NCBI GenBank assembly: GCA_016935485.1
Contig: JAFGQW010000094.1
Span: 1-55,812, forward strand
Direction of reading: 5' to 3'
Length of the DNA: 55,812 bases
Source: Planctomycetota bacterium
GTDB taxonomy: Bacteria; Planctomycetota; JAFGQW01
In this document: positions 32,653-54,730 of the stretch, in pieces
How the letters are laid out: each line of letters opens with the position of its first letter
Numbering within the stretch: position 1 is the stretch's first letter
Program-made: the position numbers and the translations under genes
The notes under the pieces: generated by a model
The model's input: the letters and a program-made list of their open reading frames with translations, nothing else
Databases searched by the model: none
What the model was told of the DNA's origin: nothing

Positions 32653-33471
32653 CTACTCGAACACCAGCACGATCGGTCGGGTCACGACGCCGATTCCGCT
32701 CGGGCTCGCGGCGTCGAGCGTGACGGCCGCGGCCCACAGGCGCAGGCCGGTCAGCTTCCCGAGCGACGACAGGTCGAGCGTGGCCGAGGCGCGGGCGGCG
32801 GCGCTCAGGGTGCCGATGTTTCCCTTGAGGAACGCGGTCAGCACGCCGCGGAGGCTGCCGAAGAACACCGTGTCCGGGGTCAGCTGGATCACGCGCGTGT
32901 CGACCGGGATACCCGGCCGGAAACCGGAGGCGGACAGCCCGAGCGCGAAGAACCGGCCGGCCTGTCCGGGCACATGGACGTCGAGGGCGTAGACGTTCGG
33001 CGCGGTGCGGCGGCTGACGAGGTTGCGCTCGGCGTAGAAGCAGGCGCCGGTGCGGGTGACGCCGGCGTGCGTCGTGATGGTCTGGCCGGTGATGTCGATG
33101 CGGTTGGTGACGGCCGCGCCGACCACGATCTCGCCGGTGCCCGACCAGCGGTCAAACGCGATGGCGTTGGCGTTGCCGGAGTTCGGGGTGACGGTCGTGT
33201 AGGTGTTGGTGGCCTGGTCGATGCGGTAGACGGTGCCGCTGGCGCCGGCGCCGATGAGGAGGCGTTCCGGCGCACGCTGCGCGAGTTCGGCTACCTCCTG
33301 GCGGGGGAGGAAGTCCGGCCCGCGCGCACCGGCCGGGCGCGGCCCGCCGGAGCCGCAGGTTCCTCCCACGGTTGAGGGCCCATCTCGCAGCTCCGGATGC
33401 GTCCCCTGGATCCGCAGCACGGTTCCCAGGTAGCTGTGGGAGCGCTGGTCGAAGCTCCGGGTCAGCCACAT
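32653..33471 (-). CDS. Probable 5'-truncated secreted propeller protein with shared C-terminal domain
   Basis: 272 residues from the first ATG, but no signal peptide, and an in-frame stop lies 11 codons upstream. The middle has propeller-like repeats (ERLLIGAGASGTVYRIDQATNTYTTV, GEIVVGAAVTNRIDITGQTITTH). The last 100 residues (ALGLSASGFRPGIPVDTRVIQLTPDTVF ... GLRLWAAAVTLDAASPSGIGVVTRPIVLVF) align with the C-terminal domain of the SBBP protein and of the five tandem paralogs near the right end. Family members are exported, so loss of the signal region suggests a remnant. It sits at the edge of the accessory stretch reaching to the tmRNA gene. Confidence 0.65.
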   Translation of the reverse strand: MWLTRSFDQRSHSYLGTVLRIQGTHPELRDGPSTVGGTCGSGGPRPAGARGPDFLPRQEVAELAQRAPERLLIGAGASGTVYRIDQATNTYTTVTPNSGNANAIAFDRWSGTGEIVVGAAVTNRIDITGQTITTHAGVTRTGACFYAERNLVSRRTAPNVYALDVHVPGQAGRFFALGLSASGFRPGIPVDTRVIQLTPDTVFFGSLRGVLTAFLKGNIGTLSAAARASATLDLSSLGKLTGLRLWAAAVTLDAASPSGIGVVTRPIVLVFE

Positions 33472-44111: not shown

Positions 44112-46649
44112 TCACCGCGTGATCGTGAAGGACGCGGTGTTCGAGATCGACTTGAGCCCGAACGGAGCCGGCGCGTAGAGCGTGACGAACGCCGAGTGAA
44201 TCCGGATGCCGACGAGGCCCTGGTCGTTCGGGATCGCAAGCGAGGCCTGCCCCTGGGCGACGCCGGACAACACGCCCGCGTAGCCGGTGAAGATCTGCGG
44301 CAGCATGCCGCCGGTGGAGATCACCAGCAGCGTGTCCGGCGACAGTCCGAGACTCCGCGGTCCGATCGGGATCGGGCCGGTGCCGAGCGACGAGCCGACC
44401 TGGTAGGCGAGGCCGGCGTCGCCGGTGGCGGTGAGTGCAAGCGTGACCCGGTTTCCCGGCCGCGGGGCACCGCTTGAGGTGAGGTTCACGAAGGCGACCT
44501 TCGAGACCCAGGCGTCGGTGATCCCGTTGAAGGTGAGATCCGGTCCGCCGGTGACCGGGAACAGGTTCGTGGTCTCGTAGCTGTCCGTATCGCCGGAGAC
44601 GTACGCATTCCCGGCGGCGTCCACGGCGATCGACCAGGCCGAATCGTAGTCGGTGCCGCCGATGTAACCGCAGTAATCCAGCGCCGTGCCGGCGGCGTTC
44701 ACTCGCGCGACGAACCCATCGTTCCAGCCGTTATAGGTGAGATCCGGCCCGACCCGCACCGGGAAGCTGTCCGTGGTCTCGTTGCTCTCGGTGCCACCGC
44801 ACACGTAGGCGTTGCCCTGGCCATCCACGCCGACACCGCCCCAGCCGTCGTCCCACTGCGCACCGCCGATGTAGCCGCAGTAGACGAGCGCGGTGCCGAG
44901 CGCGTTCACCTTGGCCACGAACGCGTCCGAGATCGCCGTCGTGTCGTTGTAGGTGAGATCCGGCCCGACCCGTACCGGGAAGCTCTGCTCGGTGCTGTCG
45001 GTGCTCCCGCAGACGTACGCGCAGCCGGTGGCGTCCACCGCGATGCCACCCGTGCTTTCCCAGCCGGTGCCGCCGAGGTAGCCGCAGTAGTCGAGCGCCG
45101 TGCCCACCGCATTCACCTTGGCCACGAAGACATCCGTCCCGCCGTTGAAGGCGAGGTCGGGACCGACGAGCACCGGGAACTTGTCCGTGGTCTCGTTGCT
45201 GCTGGTCTCGCCACACACGTAGGCGTTGCCCTGAGCGTCCACCGCGACGCGGCCCCAGCCGCCGTCGTACTGCGCACCGCCGATGTAGCCACAGTAGTCG
45301 AGCGCCGTGCCGGCCGTATTCACCTTGGCCACGAACGCATCCGAGGAAGAGGTGTCGTTGAAGGTAAGGTCGGGACCGACCCGCACGGGAAACGTGGTCT
45401 GGTCGCTCTGCGTGTCGCCGACCACGTAGGCATTGCCCGCCGCATCCACAGCGACGCCCCAGGCATAGTCGTCATTGATGCCGCCGAGGTAGCCGCAGTA
45501 ATCGAGCCCGGTGCCAGCGGCGTTCACCTTCGCGATGAAACCGTCGCCGCCGCCCGAGGCGGTGCCGTTGTACGTGAGGTCCGGCCCAACCTTCACCGGG
45601 AAGCCTTCCGAGACCGCGTCGCTCTCGGTGTAGCCCACGACGTACGCCTGGCCCTGGGCGTCGACGGCCACGCCGGCGCCGTACTCGTAGTCGGTGCCAC
45701 CGAGGTAGCCGCAGTAGACGAGCTGGCCGTTCCGGTCGACCTTCGCGACGTAGGCGTCCCCGTTGCCGTGGTAGGTGAGATCGGGTCCCACCGCCGCCGG
45801 GAAGGACGGCGCCGCGCTGTCGACCTCGCCGGTCACGTACACGTTGCCCTGCGCGTCCACGGCGGTGCCGTAGTTGTCGTCGTAGTCGTTGCCGCCGAGG
45901 TAGCCGCAGTAGACCAGCAGCGCCGGGTCGAGCACCAGCGTCCGGGTGGGGTCGTAGGCGCCGAGACGGAACCCATAGGTCACCGCGCCGGCCTCCGCGA
46001 ACGCTGGGCCGACGTCGTAGGCCATCGCCACGGATGCGCGCCGGCCGTCCACCTCCTGCCACGCGACTGGCGGCGCGTCCTCGAAGCCGCCCGCCGGCGT
46101 CTCGACCCGGAGCGCGCCGGCCGGCGTCACGAAGGCCCGCGTCAGCCCGCGATAGCGGAGCTGGATCTGCGCCGGGTTGGCGCCGGGCCGCACGACGAAC
46201 TCGTACTTGAGATAGCGGACCGTGCCGCGGTAGACCAGATCGATCCCGGGCCAGAGGTCCTCGTACACGATCTTCGCGAACGCGGGCACGCCGGTTTGCC
46301 AGTCCTTGGGCCGGCCGAGAAAGTAGCTGAAGACGGCGGCCTGACGATTCCGGCCCTCCGGGCGCACGGCGCGCGCGCCGAGAAAGTCGAGCTGGACCGC
46401 CCAGCGCTGCGCCGGAGACTCCAGCGCGACGGTCATGCCCTCTGCGGTGAAGAAGAGGGTGCGGTCCCGGCCCTTCACGTGATAGGCCACGGCGTCCGGG
46501 TAGAGGCCCCGGTTCTCGAGGAAGAGGAGCGGTGCGTCCCGGAATCCGGGGACCACCGCCGTGAGCGCCGCGGACGGCAAGTTCTGTGCGGCAGCGCCGC
46601 TCGCCAGCAGCACGGTGGCGAGGATGAGGGCGAGAACGGATCGACTCAT
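44112..46649 (-). CDS. Secreted SBBP seven-bladed beta-propeller protein with shared C-terminal domain
   Basis: 845 residues; ATG at 46649 with AAGGGA upstream. Signal peptide (LALILATVLLASGAAAQ). Residues about 20-260 are the DUF7948-like module that precedes SBBP propellers (FLENRGLYPDAVAYHVKG, GIDLVYRG, KYEFVVRPGANPAQIQLRYRG). Then exactly seven SBBP repeats, each opening with L(V/D)YCGY(L/I)GG and containing VAVDAQGNAYVCG and FPV.VGPDLTYN. The last 110 residues (LALTATGDAGLAYQVGSSLGTGPIPIGPRSLGLSPDTLLV ... SISNTASFTITR) are the domain also found in the five tandem paralogs. Likely an extracellular binding or surface protein. Confidence 0.9.
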   Translation of the reverse strand: MSRSVLALILATVLLASGAAAQNLPSAALTAVVPGFRDAPLLFLENRGLYPDAVAYHVKGRDRTLFFTAEGMTVALESPAQRWAVQLDFLGARAVRPEGRNRQAAVFSYFLGRPKDWQTGVPAFAKIVYEDLWPGIDLVYRGTVRYLKYEFVVRPGANPAQIQLRYRGLTRAFVTPAGALRVETPAGGFEDAPPVAWQEVDGRRASVAMAYDVGPAFAEAGAVTYGFRLGAYDPTRTLVLDPALLVYCGYLGGNDYDDNYGTAVDAQGNVYVTGEVDSAAPSFPAAVGPDLTYHGNGDAYVAKVDRNGQLVYCGYLGGTDYEYGAGVAVDAQGQAYVVGYTESDAVSEGFPVKVGPDLTYNGTASGGGDGFIAKVNAAGTGLDYCGYLGGINDDYAWGVAVDAAGNAYVVGDTQSDQTTFPVRVGPDLTFNDTSSSDAFVAKVNTAGTALDYCGYIGGAQYDGGWGRVAVDAQGNAYVCGETSSNETTDKFPVLVGPDLAFNGGTDVFVAKVNAVGTALDYCGYLGGTGWESTGGIAVDATGCAYVCGSTDSTEQSFPVRVGPDLTYNDTTAISDAFVAKVNALGTALVYCGYIGGAQWDDGWGGVGVDGQGNAYVCGGTESNETTDSFPVRVGPDLTYNGWNDGFVARVNAAGTALDYCGYIGGTDYDSAWSIAVDAAGNAYVSGDTDSYETTNLFPVTGGPDLTFNGITDAWVSKVAFVNLTSSGAPRPGNRVTLALTATGDAGLAYQVGSSLGTGPIPIGPRSLGLSPDTLLVISTGGMLPQIFTGYAGVLSGVAQGQASLAIPNDQGLVGIRIHSAFVTLYAPAPFGLKSISNTASFTITR

Positions 46650-46743
46650 GGGGTTTCCCTTGCTGTAAGTCCTCCCCCGGGGGACACCGCAACCTGGAAC
46701 CAGCGGCCATCGTCCGCGAGCGTCCGGGTACGGCGTTGCACCC

Positions 46744-46749
46744 ATCATA
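46744..46749 (-). promoter_or_regulatory. Extended -10 promoter for the SBBP gene
   Basis: On the minus strand TGG-TATGAT, an extended -10, with only a weak -35 (CTGTCG) 17 bases upstream. Leader about 85 bases. Confidence 0.45.
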
Positions 46750-48784: not shown

Positions 48785-49693
48785 ATGCGAACCGCGAGTT
48801 TCCTCGTCGTCCTGGTCCTGCTGGCCGGTCTCGCGACGGCCCAGACCCTGATCCCCATCCCGCCGTTCAACACCACGTACTCGTCGACGATGACGCGTGG
48901 CATGTACTGTCTGGTGCCGATCGATTTCACCGTCGTTGGCCTCCGCGTGCCGGACGAGGCGAAGAACGGCAAGCAGAACGTGTGCCTCTATCAGCACACC
49001 TCCGCGCCGCCGGCCTGGACCGCGACCGTGCCGCTCACCCCGATCTTCTCCAAGTTCGGCGAGCCGAGCGCGAACATCATTCCCTGCTCGTTCCCGTACA
49101 AGAAGGGCGAGTACCTGATCGTGCTGGGGGCGTGCGGCGATGCGGTCCAGCTTCGCAATTCCTACTCGGCGTCGTCGGCGTTTCCGACGACGATCTTCGG
49201 CGCCGCCACGACACTTTATCGTTGCGGCACCCAGAACAACATCACGACTCTGGCTCCGCCGCATCCGATCTGGAGCGAAGCGGCCAGCATCTGCCGTGTC
49301 GAGGTCTACGTGGCCTCCGCGACGATCACCGGCTCCGGCACGGGCGCGCCGGGCACCACGCTCACGTTCCTGCTGTCCGCGGCAGCCGACGGGGGGCTCC
49401 CGTACCAGCTCGGAAGCTCGCTCGGCAACGGCCCGATCCCGATCGACGCCCGGAAGCTCGAGCTGTCCGTGGACAGTCTCCTCACGCTCAGCGTGCTTGG
49501 GCTGGCGCCCGCGGTGTTCCAGAACTACGCCGGCGTTCTCGATGCCCAGGGGGCCGGCAAGGCAGCGCTCCACATCCCGAACCTGCCCGCGCTGAAGGGC
49601 ATCCGGATCTACACGGCGTTCGTCACCCTGCTCGGGACCGCTCCCTCCGGGGTCGCCAGCATCAGCAACACGTTCCTGTTCACGATCCAGTAG
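48785..49693 (+). CDS. Secreted two-domain protein, tandem paralog 1 (subtype A)
   Basis: 302 residues; ATG with AAGGAGA upstream. Signal peptide ending LAGLATAQ. N-domain (about 21-180): IPIPPFNTTYSSTMTRGMYC, DFTVVGLRVPDEAKNGKQNVCLYQHTSAPP, PLTPIFSKFGEPSANIIPC, KKGEYLIVLGACGDA, IFGAATTLYRCG and PPHPIWSE; six cysteines. C-domain (about 190-302): GTTLTFLLSAAADGGLPYQLGSSLGNGPIPIDARKLELS ... IRIYTAFVTLLGTAPSGVASISNTFLFTIQ. No catalytic motif. Probably an extracellular or surface beta-rich protein. I know no characterised member. Confidence 0.85.
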   Translation: MRTASFLVVLVLLAGLATAQTLIPIPPFNTTYSSTMTRGMYCLVPIDFTVVGLRVPDEAKNGKQNVCLYQHTSAPPAWTATVPLTPIFSKFGEPSANIIPCSFPYKKGEYLIVLGACGDAVQLRNSYSASSAFPTTIFGAATTLYRCGTQNNITTLAPPHPIWSEAASICRVEVYVASATITGSGTGAPGTTLTFLLSAAADGGLPYQLGSSLGNGPIPIDARKLELSVDSLLTLSVLGLAPAVFQNYAGVLDAQGAGKAALHIPNLPALKGIRIYTAFVTLLGTAPSGVASISNTFLFTIQ

Positions 49694-49784
49694 GCCGCTG
49701 CCGACCGCCGGACCCACGGCTCCCCGCCCGTCCGCGCCGGGGGGCCGTTGTGGCGCGCTCGAAGCCGCCGCGCTATCTCCGCTG

Positions 49785-49813
49785 TTGACCGGCCCGCCGG
49801 GGCCTGCTATTCT
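49785..49813 (+). promoter_or_regulatory. Promoter of tandem paralog 2
   Basis: TTGACC, 17-base spacer, TATTCT; leader about 30 bases. Confidence 0.7.
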
Positions 49814-49851
49814 CGAGGCTAGACCCGAGACGTTCCAAGGAGGGTGATTCC

Positions 49852-50766
49852 ATGCGTACCGTCGTCGTTCTCGCCAGCATCCTGCTGCTCGCCGGCCTGG
49901 CCGCCGCCCAGACCATGATTCCGATTCCGGGATTCGGCAGCACCTACTCGGCCAGCATGACCCGCGGCTTCTACTGCCAGGCGCCGCTGGATTTCACCGT
50001 CGTCGGGCTTCGCGTGCCGGACGAGTCCAACCACGGGCTGCAGAACGTCTGCCTCTACAACCACACGGCGGCCCCACCGGCGTACTCTGGCACCGTGGCG
50101 CTGACCCCGGTCTTCTCCAAGTTCGGCGAGCCGAGCGCCAACATCATCCCGTGTGCATTTCCGTTCAAGAAGGGCGAGTGGCTGATCGTCATCGGCGCCT
50201 GCGGCAACTCGGGCGGCCTCAAGAACTCCTACGCCTCGCCGGCCGGCGTGTTCGCGAGCAACATCCTGGGCGCGCCGACCTCGCTCTACCGCTGCGGCAT
50301 CCAGTCCAACATCATCACCACCGCGCCGCCGCATCCGGTCTGGAGCGAGAATAACGGCCAGATCTCCCGCGTCGAGGTGTATGTGGCCGCCGCCACCATC
50401 GTCGGTTCGGGTTCCGGCGCGCCCGGCACCACGCTCACGTTCCTGCTGTCCGCGGTCACCGACGGCGGGCTGACCTATCAGGTGGGAAGCTCGCTCGGCA
50501 ATGGCCCCATCCCGATCGACACCCGGAAGCTCGAGCTGTCGGTCGACGGGCTGCTGGTCGCGAGCGTTTCCGGCAATCTGCCGGCGATCTTCCAGGGCTA
50601 CGCCGGCGTTCTCGACGCCAAGGGGGCCGGCAAGGCGGCGCTGAACATCCCGAACTTGCCCGTGCTCAAGGGAACCCGGATCTACACGGCGTTCGTCACC
50701 CTGTCGCAGGTAGCCCCGTCCGGAGTGGCCAGCATCAGCGACACGTTCCTCTTCACGATCCAGTAG
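49852..50766 (+). CDS. Secreted two-domain protein, tandem paralog 2 (subtype A)
   Basis: 304 residues; AAGGAGG upstream of the ATG. Same layout as its neighbours: signal peptide (ILLLAGLAAAQ), N-domain and C-domain. Subtype A marks: TSLYRCGIQSNIITTAPPHPVWSENNGQISRVEVYV, with Cys only at YC, NVC, IPC, GAC and YRC (five). The C-domain is close to those of paralogs 3 and 5 up to LLVASVSGNLPAIF, then closer to paralog 1 (AGKAALNIPNLPVLKG), suggesting recombination among copies. A hairpin (gggcttcc ... ggaagccc, 50798-50848) after the stop may end its transcript. Confidence 0.85.
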   Translation: MRTVVVLASILLLAGLAAAQTMIPIPGFGSTYSASMTRGFYCQAPLDFTVVGLRVPDESNHGLQNVCLYNHTAAPPAYSGTVALTPVFSKFGEPSANIIPCAFPFKKGEWLIVIGACGNSGGLKNSYASPAGVFASNILGAPTSLYRCGIQSNIITTAPPHPVWSENNGQISRVEVYVAAATIVGSGSGAPGTTLTFLLSAVTDGGLTYQVGSSLGNGPIPIDTRKLELSVDGLLVASVSGNLPAIFQGYAGVLDAKGAGKAALNIPNLPVLKGTRIYTAFVTLSQVAPSGVASISDTFLFTIQ

Positions 50767-50797
50767 CCTGACAATAGCCTCAATAGCCTGAGGCGAT

Positions 50798-50848
50798 GGG
50801 GCTTCCGCCCGGCGGCTTGCCGCGGTGCCGGCGGGCGGCCGGAAGCCC
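50798..50848 (+). terminator. Hairpin after paralog 2 (possible terminator)
   Basis: Arms gggcttcc/ggaagccc extended by further G-C pairs with a small bulge; no T run. Preceded by short direct repeats of aatagcct (about 50770-50790). Confidence 0.35.
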
Positions 50849-50874
50849 GAGATGCGGCCTCGTTTCGGGTCGTC

Positions 50875-50903
50875 TTGACGCGCCGTTCCGACGCGGGTAC
50901 GCT
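50875..50903 (+). promoter_or_regulatory. Promoter of tandem paralog 3
   Basis: TTGACG, 17-base spacer, TACGCT. Spacer end and leader (acgcgggtac ... cccgaggag) closely match those of paralog 5. Confidence 0.65.
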
Positions 50904-50938
50904 CGGTTCCAGACGGAATCGACCCGAGGAGAACAACC

Positions 50939-51853
50939 ATGCGTATTCCCGCCGCGCTCGCCGCCGTCCTGCTGCTCGCCGGTCTGGCCTCCGCCCAGAC
51001 AATGATCCCGATTCCGGCGTTCAACCGCACCTACAGCTACTCCGCGCACACCCGCGGCTTCTACTGCCAGGCGCCGGTGGACTTCACGGTCGTCGGGCTT
51101 CGCGTGCCCGACGAGGCCAACAACGGCCAGCAGAATGTGTGTGTCTACCAGCACACTGCCGCTCCGCTGCCGATCTCGACGGCGGTCCCGCTCACGCCCG
51201 TCTTCTCGAAGTTCGGCGAGCCGAGCAGGAACATCATTCCCTGCTCGATTCCGTACAAGAAGGGCGACTGGCTAATCGTGCTGGGCGCCTGCGGCAACGC
51301 CAGCATGCTCCACAACTCGTACGGCCCACAGGGCTGTTTCCAGAGCAGCATCTTCGGCCAGCCGACCACGATATGCCGCGGCGGCGTCCAGGCGAACATC
51401 GTCAGCACGGCGCCGCCCCATACGGTCTGGAGCGAGAACGCCTTCGAGGTCTGCCGCGTGGAGGTGTACGTCGCCTCCGCCCAGCTCGTCGGCTCGGGTT
51501 CCGGCGCGCCCGGCACCGCGCTGACGTTCACCCTGATGGCCGCCGCGGACGGGGGGCTCCCGTACCAGCTCGGAAGCTCGCTTGGCAACGGCCCGATCCC
51601 GATCGACACCCGCAAGCTCGAGCTCTCCGCCGACGCGCTCCTGGTCGCGAGCGTTTCCGGCAATCTGCCGGCGGTGTTCGAGGGCTACGCCGGCACGCTC
51701 GATGCAAAGGGACTCGGCAACGCCAAGCTCCACATCCCGATGATCCCGGCGCTCAAGGGGCTGAGAATCTACAGCGCATTCGTGACGCTGCGCGGGTCGG
51801 CGCCCTCGGGCATCGCGAGCATCAGCGACACGTTCCTCTTCACCATCCAGTAG
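50939..51853 (+). CDS. Secreted two-domain protein, tandem paralog 3 (subtype B)
   Basis: 304 residues; GAGGAG upstream of the ATG. Signal peptide (AVLLLAGLASAQ). Subtype B marks: GPQGCFQSSIFGQPTTICRGGVQANIV and SENAFEVCRVEVYVASAQLVGSG, giving seven N-domain cysteines with the extra pair GCF/CR replacing YRCG. The C-domain is nearly identical to paralog 5. A GC hairpin region follows the stop (about 51855-51913). Function unknown; secretion and an all-beta fold are inferred from the signal peptide and the repeated short hydrophobic strands. Confidence 0.85.
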   Translation: MRIPAALAAVLLLAGLASAQTMIPIPAFNRTYSYSAHTRGFYCQAPVDFTVVGLRVPDEANNGQQNVCVYQHTAAPLPISTAVPLTPVFSKFGEPSRNIIPCSIPYKKGDWLIVLGACGNASMLHNSYGPQGCFQSSIFGQPTTICRGGVQANIVSTAPPHTVWSENAFEVCRVEVYVASAQLVGSGSGAPGTALTFTLMAAADGGLPYQLGSSLGNGPIPIDTRKLELSADALLVASVSGNLPAVFEGYAGTLDAKGLGNAKLHIPMIPALKGLRIYSAFVTLRGSAPSGIASISDTFLFTIQ

Positions 51854-52040
51854 GCCGGGACCGCCGCGCCGCCGCTATCGCTCCGTCGCGCGTGCGGGGC
51901 GGGGCGGCGGTGCCAGCCAGTGCTGCCCGCTCCCTCGCAAGCCGCCAGGAATCGGCCCGGAATGAGACGGACAGCCGCGGGGCACTGCGGTGGGCAGCAG
52001 TCTGCACCGGCGCATGATCTCGACAGATTCCATGCGGCCA

Positions 52041-52069
52041 TTGACAGCAGGTGCGGTAGCAGGTACGCT
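52041..52069 (+). promoter_or_regulatory. Promoter of tandem paralog 4
   Basis: TTGACA (perfect), 17-base spacer, TACGCT. Leader about 190 bases, containing a hairpin with 8-bp stem (cgccgcac-gtgt-gtgcggcg, about 52182-52201). Confidence 0.65.
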
Positions 52070-52262
52070 CGATCTTGTTGTGTTTGAGGAGTCGGCGCGA
52101 GACGGCCGCCGTCGAGGAGTCCGTGCTCGCGCCCGAGAGAGACTGGGTTCCCTTTCGTCCAGGAGATTCCGGTGCCCGGCTCACGCCGCACGTGTGTGCG
52201 GCGCAAGCGGAGATGTGTCGCGGCCGGGGCGCGATCTCGAGGGTAGTTCAAGGAGAGGATTC

Positions 52263-53669
52263 ATGCGCATCGCAGCCGTTCTTGTCACCGTGCTCCTGCT
52301 GGCCGGTCTGGCCGCCGCCCAGGCCATGGTGCCGATCCCCGCGTTCGGCACCACCTACTCGGCCAGCATGACCCGTGGCCTCTACTGCCAGGCGCCGGTG
52401 GACTTCACCGTCGTCGGGCTCCGGGTGCCCGACGAGGCGAACCACGGGCTCCAGAACGTGTGCCTCTACAAGCACACCTCCGCGCCGCCCGCCTACACGG
52501 GCACCGTGCCGCTGACCCCACGGTTTTCCGCCTTCGGCGCACCGAGCGCGACTATCCTCCCGTGCGCGGTCCCGTTCCGCAAGGGCGACTGGATGATGGT
52601 GATCGGCGCGTGCGGCGATGCGAGCGGGCTCAAGAACTCGTACGCCACGCCGCCCGGTGCCTTCGCGACCAGCATCTTCGGCGCCGCGACCACGCTGTAT
52701 CGCTGCGGCATCCAGTCGAACATCATCACCACGCCGCCGCCGCATCCGGTCTGGAGCGAGAATAGTGGCCAGATCTCCCGCGTCGAGGTCTACGTGGTCC
52801 CGGGTTACTACCCGGGCTACCGGATCCCGCTGCCCGCGTTCAGCCGCACGTACTCGTCCACCCAGACCCGCGGGTTCTACTGCCAGGCGCCGCTGCCCTT
52901 CGCCGTCGTCGGTGTCCGAGTGCCCGACGAGTCGAACCACGGTCTGCAGAACGTATGCCTCTACAAGGATGCCTCCGCGCCGCCGGCCTTCTCCAGCACC
53001 GTGCTGCTGACCCCGCAGTTCTCGAAGTTCGGCGAGCCGAGCGCGAACATCATTCCGTGTCTGGTGCCCTACAACCTGGGCGAGTGGATGATCGCGCTGG
53101 GAGCCTGCGGTGACGCGAGCGGGCTCAAGAACTCCTACGGACCCGCGGGCTGCTTTGTGAGCAGCATCCTCGGCGCGCCCACGACGCTCTGCCGCGCCGG
53201 CGTCCAGGCGAACATCGTCACGGCGACACCGCCGCATGCGATCTGGAGCGAGAACGCCTTCGAGGTCAGCCGCGTCGAGGTCTTCGTGTCCGCGGCGGGA
53301 ATCACCGGCTCCGGCACGGGCGGCGTGGGCACCACGATGACGTTCCTGCTTGCCGCCCCGGGCGACAGCGGGCTGCCGTACCAGATGGCGAGCTCCTTCG
53401 GCGAGGGACCCATCCCGATCGACACGCGGCTGCTCGGGCTGTCGTACGATTCGCTGCTGGTGCTGAGCGTGATGAACCTCGCGCCGGGGACGTTCATCAA
53501 TTACTCCGGCGTGCTGAGCCGTTCGGGCACGGCGAAGGCGGGGCTGGCCATCCCGAAGATTCCTTCGCTGATCGGTATCCGCATCTTCACGGCCTATGTG
53601 ACCGTGCTGCCGGCCGCTCCATCCGGCGTGGCGAACATCAGCAACACCTTCCTGTTCACCGTCCAGTAG
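52263..53669 (+). CDS. Secreted protein with duplicated N-domain, tandem paralog 4 (A+B fusion)
   Basis: 468 residues; AAGGAGAGG upstream of the ATG. Signal peptide (VTVLLLAGLAAAQ), a first N-domain of subtype A (TTLYRCGIQSNIIT, SENSGQISRVEVYV), a short join VPGYYPGYRIPLPAF, a second N-domain of subtype B (GPAGCFVSSILGAPTTLCRAGVQANIV) and one C-domain (GLPYQMASSFGEGPIPIDTRLLGLS ... GVANISNTFLFTVQ). The join falls exactly where the C-domain of the first unit and the promoter and signal peptide of the second would be, so an in-frame deletion fused two neighbouring genes. The reading frame is intact, so the product is probably made. Confidence 0.88.
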   Translation: MRIAAVLVTVLLLAGLAAAQAMVPIPAFGTTYSASMTRGLYCQAPVDFTVVGLRVPDEANHGLQNVCLYKHTSAPPAYTGTVPLTPRFSAFGAPSATILPCAVPFRKGDWMMVIGACGDASGLKNSYATPPGAFATSIFGAATTLYRCGIQSNIITTPPPHPVWSENSGQISRVEVYVVPGYYPGYRIPLPAFSRTYSSTQTRGFYCQAPLPFAVVGVRVPDESNHGLQNVCLYKDASAPPAFSSTVLLTPQFSKFGEPSANIIPCLVPYNLGEWMIALGACGDASGLKNSYGPAGCFVSSILGAPTTLCRAGVQANIVTATPPHAIWSENAFEVSRVEVFVSAAGITGSGTGGVGTTMTFLLAAPGDSGLPYQMASSFGEGPIPIDTRLLGLSYDSLLVLSVMNLAPGTFINYSGVLSRSGTAKAGLAIPKIPSLIGIRIFTAYVTVLPAAPSGVANISNTFLFTVQ

Positions 53670-53693
53670 CCGGCATCGGCCGCGCTGCTTCCG

Positions 53694-53723
53694 GGCTTCC
53701 CGCCGCCGAGGCGGCGGGAAGCC
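53694..53723 (+). terminator. Perfect GC hairpin after paralog 4
   Basis: 14-bp arms ggcttcccgccgcc/ggcggcgggaagcc with a minimal loop, 25 bases after the stop. No T run follows, so it may be an intrinsic-like or Rho-assisted end. Confidence 0.45.
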
Positions 53724-53754
53724 GGACCTTCCCGGACGGGTCCGGAGCGGGGGA

Positions 53755-53783
53755 TTGACTCGCGCCCCGAACGCGGGTAGGCT
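53755..53783 (+). promoter_or_regulatory. Promoter of tandem paralog 5
   Basis: TTGACT, 17-base spacer, TAGGCT; leader about 30 bases with cccgaggag before the ATG, as in paralog 3. Confidence 0.65.
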
Positions 53784-53818
53784 TCGGCCTGGACCGAAGT
53801 GACCCGAGGAGAGGAACC

Positions 53819-54730
53819 ATGCGTATTCTCGCCGCGCTCGCCGCCGTCTCGCTGCTCGCCGGTCTGGCCGCCGCCCAGACGGTGATCCCGATTCCCGCGT
53901 TCAGCCACACCTACCAGGCGAGCCAGACTCGCGGGTTCTACTGCCAGGCGCCGGTGGACTTCACCGTCGTCGGGCTCCGCGTGCCCGACGAGGCCAAGAA
54001 CGGCCAGCAGAACGTGTGCCTCTACAACCACACCTCCGCGCCGCCGGCGTTCTCTGGCACGGTGCCGCTCACGCCACTGTTCTCCAAGTTCGCCGAGCCG
54101 AGCGCGAACATCATCCCCTGCTCGATTCCGTACAAGAAGGGCGACTGGCTGATCGTCATCGGCGCGTGCGGCAACGCGACCATGCTCTACAACTCGTACG
54201 CCGCGCCGGGCTGCTTCCAGAGCAGCATCTTCGGCAATGCGACCACGGTATGCCGCGCCGGCATCCAGGCGAACATTGTCAGCGCCCTGCCGCCGCACGC
54301 GATCTGGAGCGAGAACGCGTTCGAAGTCTGTCGCGTGGAGGTCTACGTCGCCTCCGCCCAGCTCGTCGGCTCCGGTTCCGGCGCGCCCGGCACCACGCTC
54401 ACGTTCACCCTCATGGCCGCCGCCGACGGGGGGCTTCCGTACCAGCTCGGAAGCTCGCTCGGCAACGGCCCGATCCCGATCGACACGCGCAAGCTCGAGC
54501 TCTCCCCCGACGCGCTGCTGGTCGCCAGCGTCTCCGGCAATCTGCCGGCGGTGTTCGAGGGCTATGCGGGGACGCTGGACGCGCAGGGACTCGGCAACGC
54601 CAAGCTCCACCTCCCGATGGTCCCGGCGCTCAAGGGCGTGCGGATCTACAGCGCGTTCGTCACCCTCCGTGGATCGGCGCCGTCGGGGATCGCCAGCGTC
54701 AGCGACACGTTCCTGTTCACGATCCAGTAG
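53819..54730 (+). CDS. Secreted two-domain protein, tandem paralog 5 (subtype B)
   Basis: 303 residues; GAGGAGAGG upstream of the ATG. Signal peptide (AVSLLAGLAAAQ). Subtype B: AAPGCFQSSIFGNATTVCRAGIQANIV and SENAFEVCRVEVYVASAQLVGSG, seven cysteines in the N-domain. The C-domain differs from paralog 3 at only a few positions, and the DNA of promoter, leader and first codons (atgcgtattc) is also alike, so these two are the most recent duplicates or have undergone gene conversion. Function unknown. Confidence 0.85.
   Translation: MRILAALAAVSLLAGLAAAQTVIPIPAFSHTYQASQTRGFYCQAPVDFTVVGLRVPDEAKNGQQNVCLYNHTSAPPAFSGTVPLTPLFSKFAEPSANIIPCSIPYKKGDWLIVIGACGNATMLYNSYAAPGCFQSSIFGNATTVCRAGIQANIVSALPPHAIWSENAFEVCRVEVYVASAQLVGSGSGAPGTTLTFTLMAAADGGLPYQLGSSLGNGPIPIDTRKLELSPDALLVASVSGNLPAVFEGYAGTLDAQGLGNAKLHLPMVPALKGVRIYSAFVTLRGSAPSGIASVSDTFLFTIQ

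Follow-up and report, generated by a model that had tools for sequence, protein, structure and literature searches.

The window (the whole stretch of 55,812 nucleotides analyzed here, from a Planctomycetota genome of 4.9 Mb) contains five consecutive genes on the + strand at 48785-54730, exactly where the original prediction had placed a tandem array. Each gene is preceded by a Shine-Dalgarno-like sequence (5/5) and encodes a protein with a signal peptide of the type M-R-...-A-Q, followed by an N-terminal domain of about 160 amino acids (N-domain) and a C-terminal domain of about 120 amino acids (C-domain), in keeping with the proposal of secreted two-domain proteins, export being predicted.

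48785..49693, + strand: array gene 1; signal peptide 48785-48841, N-domain 48842-49312, C-domain about 49334-49690
49852..50766, + strand: array gene 2; signal peptide 49852-49908, N-domain 49909-50385, C-domain about 50407-50763; both domains modeled with AlphaFold2
50939..51853, + strand: array gene 3; signal peptide 50939-50995, N-domain 50996-51472, C-domain about 51494-51850
52263..53669, + strand: array gene 4; signal peptide 52263-52319, N-domains 52320-52796 and about 52812-53288, C-domain about 53310-53666
53819..54730, + strand: array gene 5; signal peptide 53819-53875, N-domain 53876-54349, C-domain about 54371-54727

Gene 2 matches genes 1, 3, and 5 over the full length with 72-73% identity (E about 1e-142 to 1e-144, far above chance). 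Gene 4 is arranged as signal peptide-N-N-C, with separate gene 2 matches at 52263-52802 and 52821-53666, so the single plan proposed for all five genes holds for the presence of signal peptide, N-domain, and C-domain throughout and fails on the number of N-domains in gene 4. Each protein has the AQ-ending signal peptide, and the motifs listed from the sequence recur with minor changes (for example, TRGMYCLVP in gene 1 and SAFGAPSATILPC in gene 4); TFLFTIQ or TFLFTVQ closes the C-domain in 5/5 proteins. The cysteine variation noted earlier is also real: N-domain copies in the array contain 5 to 7 cysteines, and across the 11 copies of the genome the range is 1 to 7. None of the five proteins has a Pfam match and their NCBIfam matches are at chance level only, in line with the original remark that no characterized member came to mind; matches of the proteins or their domains to lanthipeptide, Cuticle_1, C25_C, and NADH-dehydrogenase models were dismissed as chance-level.

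The C-domain is not specific to the array. With gene 2 as query, the genome yielded about 150 matches, almost all of them confined to residues 178-304. We fetched 80 stretches around these matches (about 1.0 Mb) and built a C-domain profile from them, which found at least 146 copies, a lower bound given that the stretches were chosen for holding matches. The domain ends at the stop codon in 141 of the 146 copies, two run off the end of the sequence, and three are internal, comprising one apparently frameshifted copy, one fragment, and one copy truly located N-terminally, behind a signal peptide. Because this last protein (locus L116, 3723-5454, + strand) carries the C-domain directly after its signal peptide, the C-terminal position is not absolute; it has an apparent beta-propeller behind the domain and is the sole clear exception to the C-terminal rule.

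The C-domain copies in the genome have a median pairwise identity of 36% and are attached to very different proteins. A strong signal-peptide-like start, called by a simple in-house rule and not by SignalP, was found in 111 of the 126 C-domain open reading frames of at least 250 amino acids, compared with 79 of 600 control frames. The parts N-terminal to the C-domain are about 80 to 915 amino acids long and match 38 Pfam families, among them SBBP with DUF7948, FG-GAP, Kelch, Peptidase_C25, papain, lectin-like, CBM96, and thioredoxin-like families, and the cargo includes beta-propellers. We read the C-domain as a tag, borne by at least 140 predicted secreted proteins whose N-terminal parts are unrelated. 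Two further carriers lie within the window:

44112..46748, - strand: secreted DUF7948 and SBBP-repeat protein with the same C-domain as the array at its end (44121-44474), from Pfam and the C-domain search
32653..33471, - strand: shorter frame with a divergent C-domain copy at its end (about 32656-32994), from the C-domain search; no signal-peptide-like start found

The shorter frame, lacking a signal-peptide-like start, is possibly a degraded gene.

This distribution bears on the suggestion that the array was expanded under selection for diversity. Tandem paralogs, a changing cysteine pattern, and the doubled N-domain in gene 4 are what would be expected of one two-domain unit under diversifying selection, such as a family of variable surface antigens or receptors. 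The suggestion found no support in the substitution pattern: pairwise dN/dS is 0.22-0.56 for the N-domains and 0.07-0.55 for the C-domains, below one in every pair, which indicates that the array genes evolve under purifying constraint on average. With the C-domain also common to proteins with unrelated N-terminal parts, we regard diversifying selection on a single unit as very improbable.

To survey the phylum, we used a C-domain profile (A1) made from 38 copies on 294 genomes drawn across Planctomycetota. The domain was found in 53 of the 294, mostly in several copies each, with at least 112 copies in a genome of the same family (G001), 43 in G017, and 14-17 in G008, G020, and G038. At 20 loci sampled, one from each of 20 other genomes, it was C-terminal in 20/20. 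A tblastn search of plasmids with either the C-domain or the N-domain as query gave no match. In proteins of family f44 and of Planctomycetota metagenome-assembled genomes (L131, L150, L151), the N-domain is followed by a different C-terminal domain of about 130 amino acids, ending ..FALSNATEWWLAN or similar. This second domain (A5, from f44/f84 relatives) aligns to the C-domain in hhalign with a probability of 56% (E 1e-4), and each of the 25 genomes positive for A5 is also among the 53 positive for A1; A5 could represent a distant branch of the C-domain.

The AlphaFold2 model of the gene 2 C-domain is confident (mean pLDDT 96) and depicts a compact folded domain with a final beta strand. Ig V-type domains come nearest among PDB folds (E 1e-4 to 1e-3, TM about 0.4-0.55), and these matches are weak and generic; as modeled, the C-domain is an Ig-like sandwich but no close relative of Ig V-type domains. 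It had no meaningful match in Pfam, NCBIfam, or PDB sequence profiles, and since the Pfam and NCBIfam copies searched hold no model of it, its carriers are likely annotated as unrelated hypothetical or beta-propeller proteins.

Like the MYXO-CTERM, GlyGly-CTERM, and PEP-CTERM tags, the C-domain sits at the C-terminus of dozens of exported proteins in a genome, but it differs in being a folded beta domain rather than a short motif followed by a transmembrane helix and a basic tail. Neither the C-domain sequences nor the model contain a transmembrane helix, a basic tail, or a sortase-type motif. A compact fold of this kind would also suit a domain that passively holds proteins in place by non-covalent attachment to LPS, peptidoglycan, or an S-layer, or one that serves in assembly, with export by another route, for example the T2SS; the N-terminal placement in L116 fits such a role. 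A binding module that merely needs to be present would not, however, be expected to keep so strictly to the stop codon (141 of the 146 copies), and we consider a passive anchor or assembly domain possible but somewhat unlikely.

The N-domain is all-beta in the AlphaFold2 model of gene 2 (mean pLDDT 96). The nearest PDB folds include phage fibre, PHR, BclA lectin, C1q/TNF, and CBM32 structures, none with E below 0.05. The BclA lectins, C1q/TNF, PHR, and CBM32-type beta sandwiches are all-beta and jelly-roll-like, as is the N-domain, but with TM of 0.2-0.4 and E >0.05 they give no evidence of membership. The 11 copies matched no Pfam family, adhesin and lectin models included, and gave no convincing PDB sequence match.

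Two of the 11 N-domains occur in gingipain-family peptidases with the architecture signal peptide-C25-C25_C(Ig)-N-C (L044, 2253-5060, + strand, and L046, - strand, on contigs C170 and C226). Two further C25 proteins were seen, one with a divergent C-domain (L176) and one without a C-domain (L175). The N-domains in peptidases, the doubled N-domain of gene 4, and the use of the C-domain as a general tag had all been missed by the original prediction. In Porphyromonas gingipains and HagA, adhesin modules occur downstream of C25-Ig and as free-standing repeats before the C-terminal sorting domain. The N-domain likewise occurs downstream of C25-Ig and as separate repeats in the array; unlike those adhesins, it has no Pfam match, so the comparison is an analogy of layout only.

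In a tree of the N-domains, one supported clade (100/99) unites the six copies from the array with the two from C25 peptidases, marking the array as an ordinary, lineage-specific expansion of this cargo module. Three adjacent N-C genes also form a run of their own in the family relative G001.

The N-domain is found with other C-terminal tags in other lineages. Genome contigs searched with the N-domain gave, as named relatives, 'bacterium 3_bin.21', Planctomycetota SJ480, and Planctomycetia F1-120. No A1 match to the C-domain was found in those f23 genomes that have an N-domain, and the f23 N-domain proteins complete at the C-terminus (L136, L139, L145) have a tail consisting of a Gly-rich segment, a Cys, a transmembrane helix, and a basic stretch, close to the MYXO-CTERM design as described in PMC11980579. 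These three tails end in RVRGSKA or RIRNSKA and are CTERM-like. The pairing of the same N-domain with different C-terminal tags in different lineages supports the C-domain as the tag and the N-domain as the extracellular working part.

The N-domain is most likely an adhesin or a carbohydrate-binding module, a role suggested by its architecture and predicted fold type, given that there is no convincing structural neighbor (best E 0.056). The extracellular binding or surface role originally put forward is still the best guess. The 11-row alignment has invariant polar residues (R, D, E, Y, N, Q), which could instead belong to an unrecognized enzyme, and no fold match names a function. The domain is, however, jelly-roll-like and all-beta, occurs in tandem copies within one chain, and comes after a peptidase, as binding modules usually do, all of which makes an enzyme decidedly improbable.

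The C-domain resembles the C-terminal domain (CTD) of T9SS cargo. Both sit at the extreme C-terminus of many unrelated signal-peptide proteins, including C25-Ig peptidases that repeat the gingipain plan, with similar types of cargo, and both have an Ig-like beta-sandwich fold, as predicted by AlphaFold2 for the C-domain (with weak Ig V matches, TM about 0.5) and as described for T9SS CTDs, along with an IgSF-CTD tandem, in PMC4804311. The same paper states that T9SS CTDs share little sequence among themselves, so the C-domain might be a very divergent T9SS CTD and its carriers ordinary T9SS cargo. The C-domain differs in length (about 120 amino acids, compared with 73 residues in the RgpB CTD construct S664-K736 of PMC4804311) and in occurring in another phylum, in a genome without a T9SS component above cut-off. 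The Por_Secre_tail model (PF18962) matched neither this genome nor G001; across the phylum it matched in 10 of 294 genomes, just one of which (G185) is also A1-positive. PorV (NF033709) was above cut-off in 1 of 294 genomes (G072, which is not a C-domain genome) and in neither this genome (G000) nor G001. Weak PorV matches in 90 genomes were mostly short, partial, and below cut-off, and were not counted. SprA (PF14349) had no match anywhere, and its positive control was equally silent. Given the PF18962 and PorV results, we did not file the C-domain as a T9SS member, and we consider that relationship improbable.

We think it probable that the array encodes small exported binding proteins of two modules, with the C-domain as a general C-terminal sorting or anchoring domain and the N-domain as the working part. 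Passage through the inner membrane would depend on the Sec signal peptide. A common component of the outer envelope would then recognize, or be bound by, the folded C-domain, and in this way a set of different proteins numbering well over a hundred per genome could reach the surface by export or be retained there. The N-domain, a predicted jelly-roll-like beta-sandwich, would do the work, most likely in adhesion or carbohydrate binding, and its duplication, as whole genes in the array and within gene 4, may provide more copies or greater valency. Domain borders, C-terminal position, unrelated cargoes, signal-peptide-like starts, phylum spread, and confident models were seen directly, and their pattern speaks strongly for sorting or anchoring as the probable function of the C-domain; surface location and ligand binding are, like that function, inferred.

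A more far-reaching version, which we put forward tentatively, has the C-domain as the substrate signal for a Planctomycetota system of outer-membrane export or anchoring that has yet to be described. Such a system would be analogous to the T9SS with machinery of its own and would serve about 3% of the proteins of this organism (from the at least 146 carriers, with gene number estimated from genome size). No candidate transporter or receptor for the C-domain, or export machinery, was identified. The domain is apparently undescribed, and the surprising part is that it is both numerous and spread through the phylum; in the open-access literature, no paper was recognizable as describing such a domain, a judgment made mostly from titles and the openings of abstracts and hence weak evidence of novelty.

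To our knowledge, protein transport across or onto the outer envelope of Planctomycetota is poorly known. Carried by dozens to well over a hundred proteins in a genome, the C-domain marks a putative surface or secreted proteome by sequence, names its cargo, and makes the search for partner machinery testable.

A glutamine directly follows the scored cleavage site in 38 of 89 C-domain proteins (43%, against a background of 4.7%) in loci L042-L121 and the window. This resembles the 'Q-rule' of Bacteroidetes, reported as Bacteroidetes-specific in PMC5837995. The same residue follows the cleavage site in 6 of 22 other secreted open reading frames.
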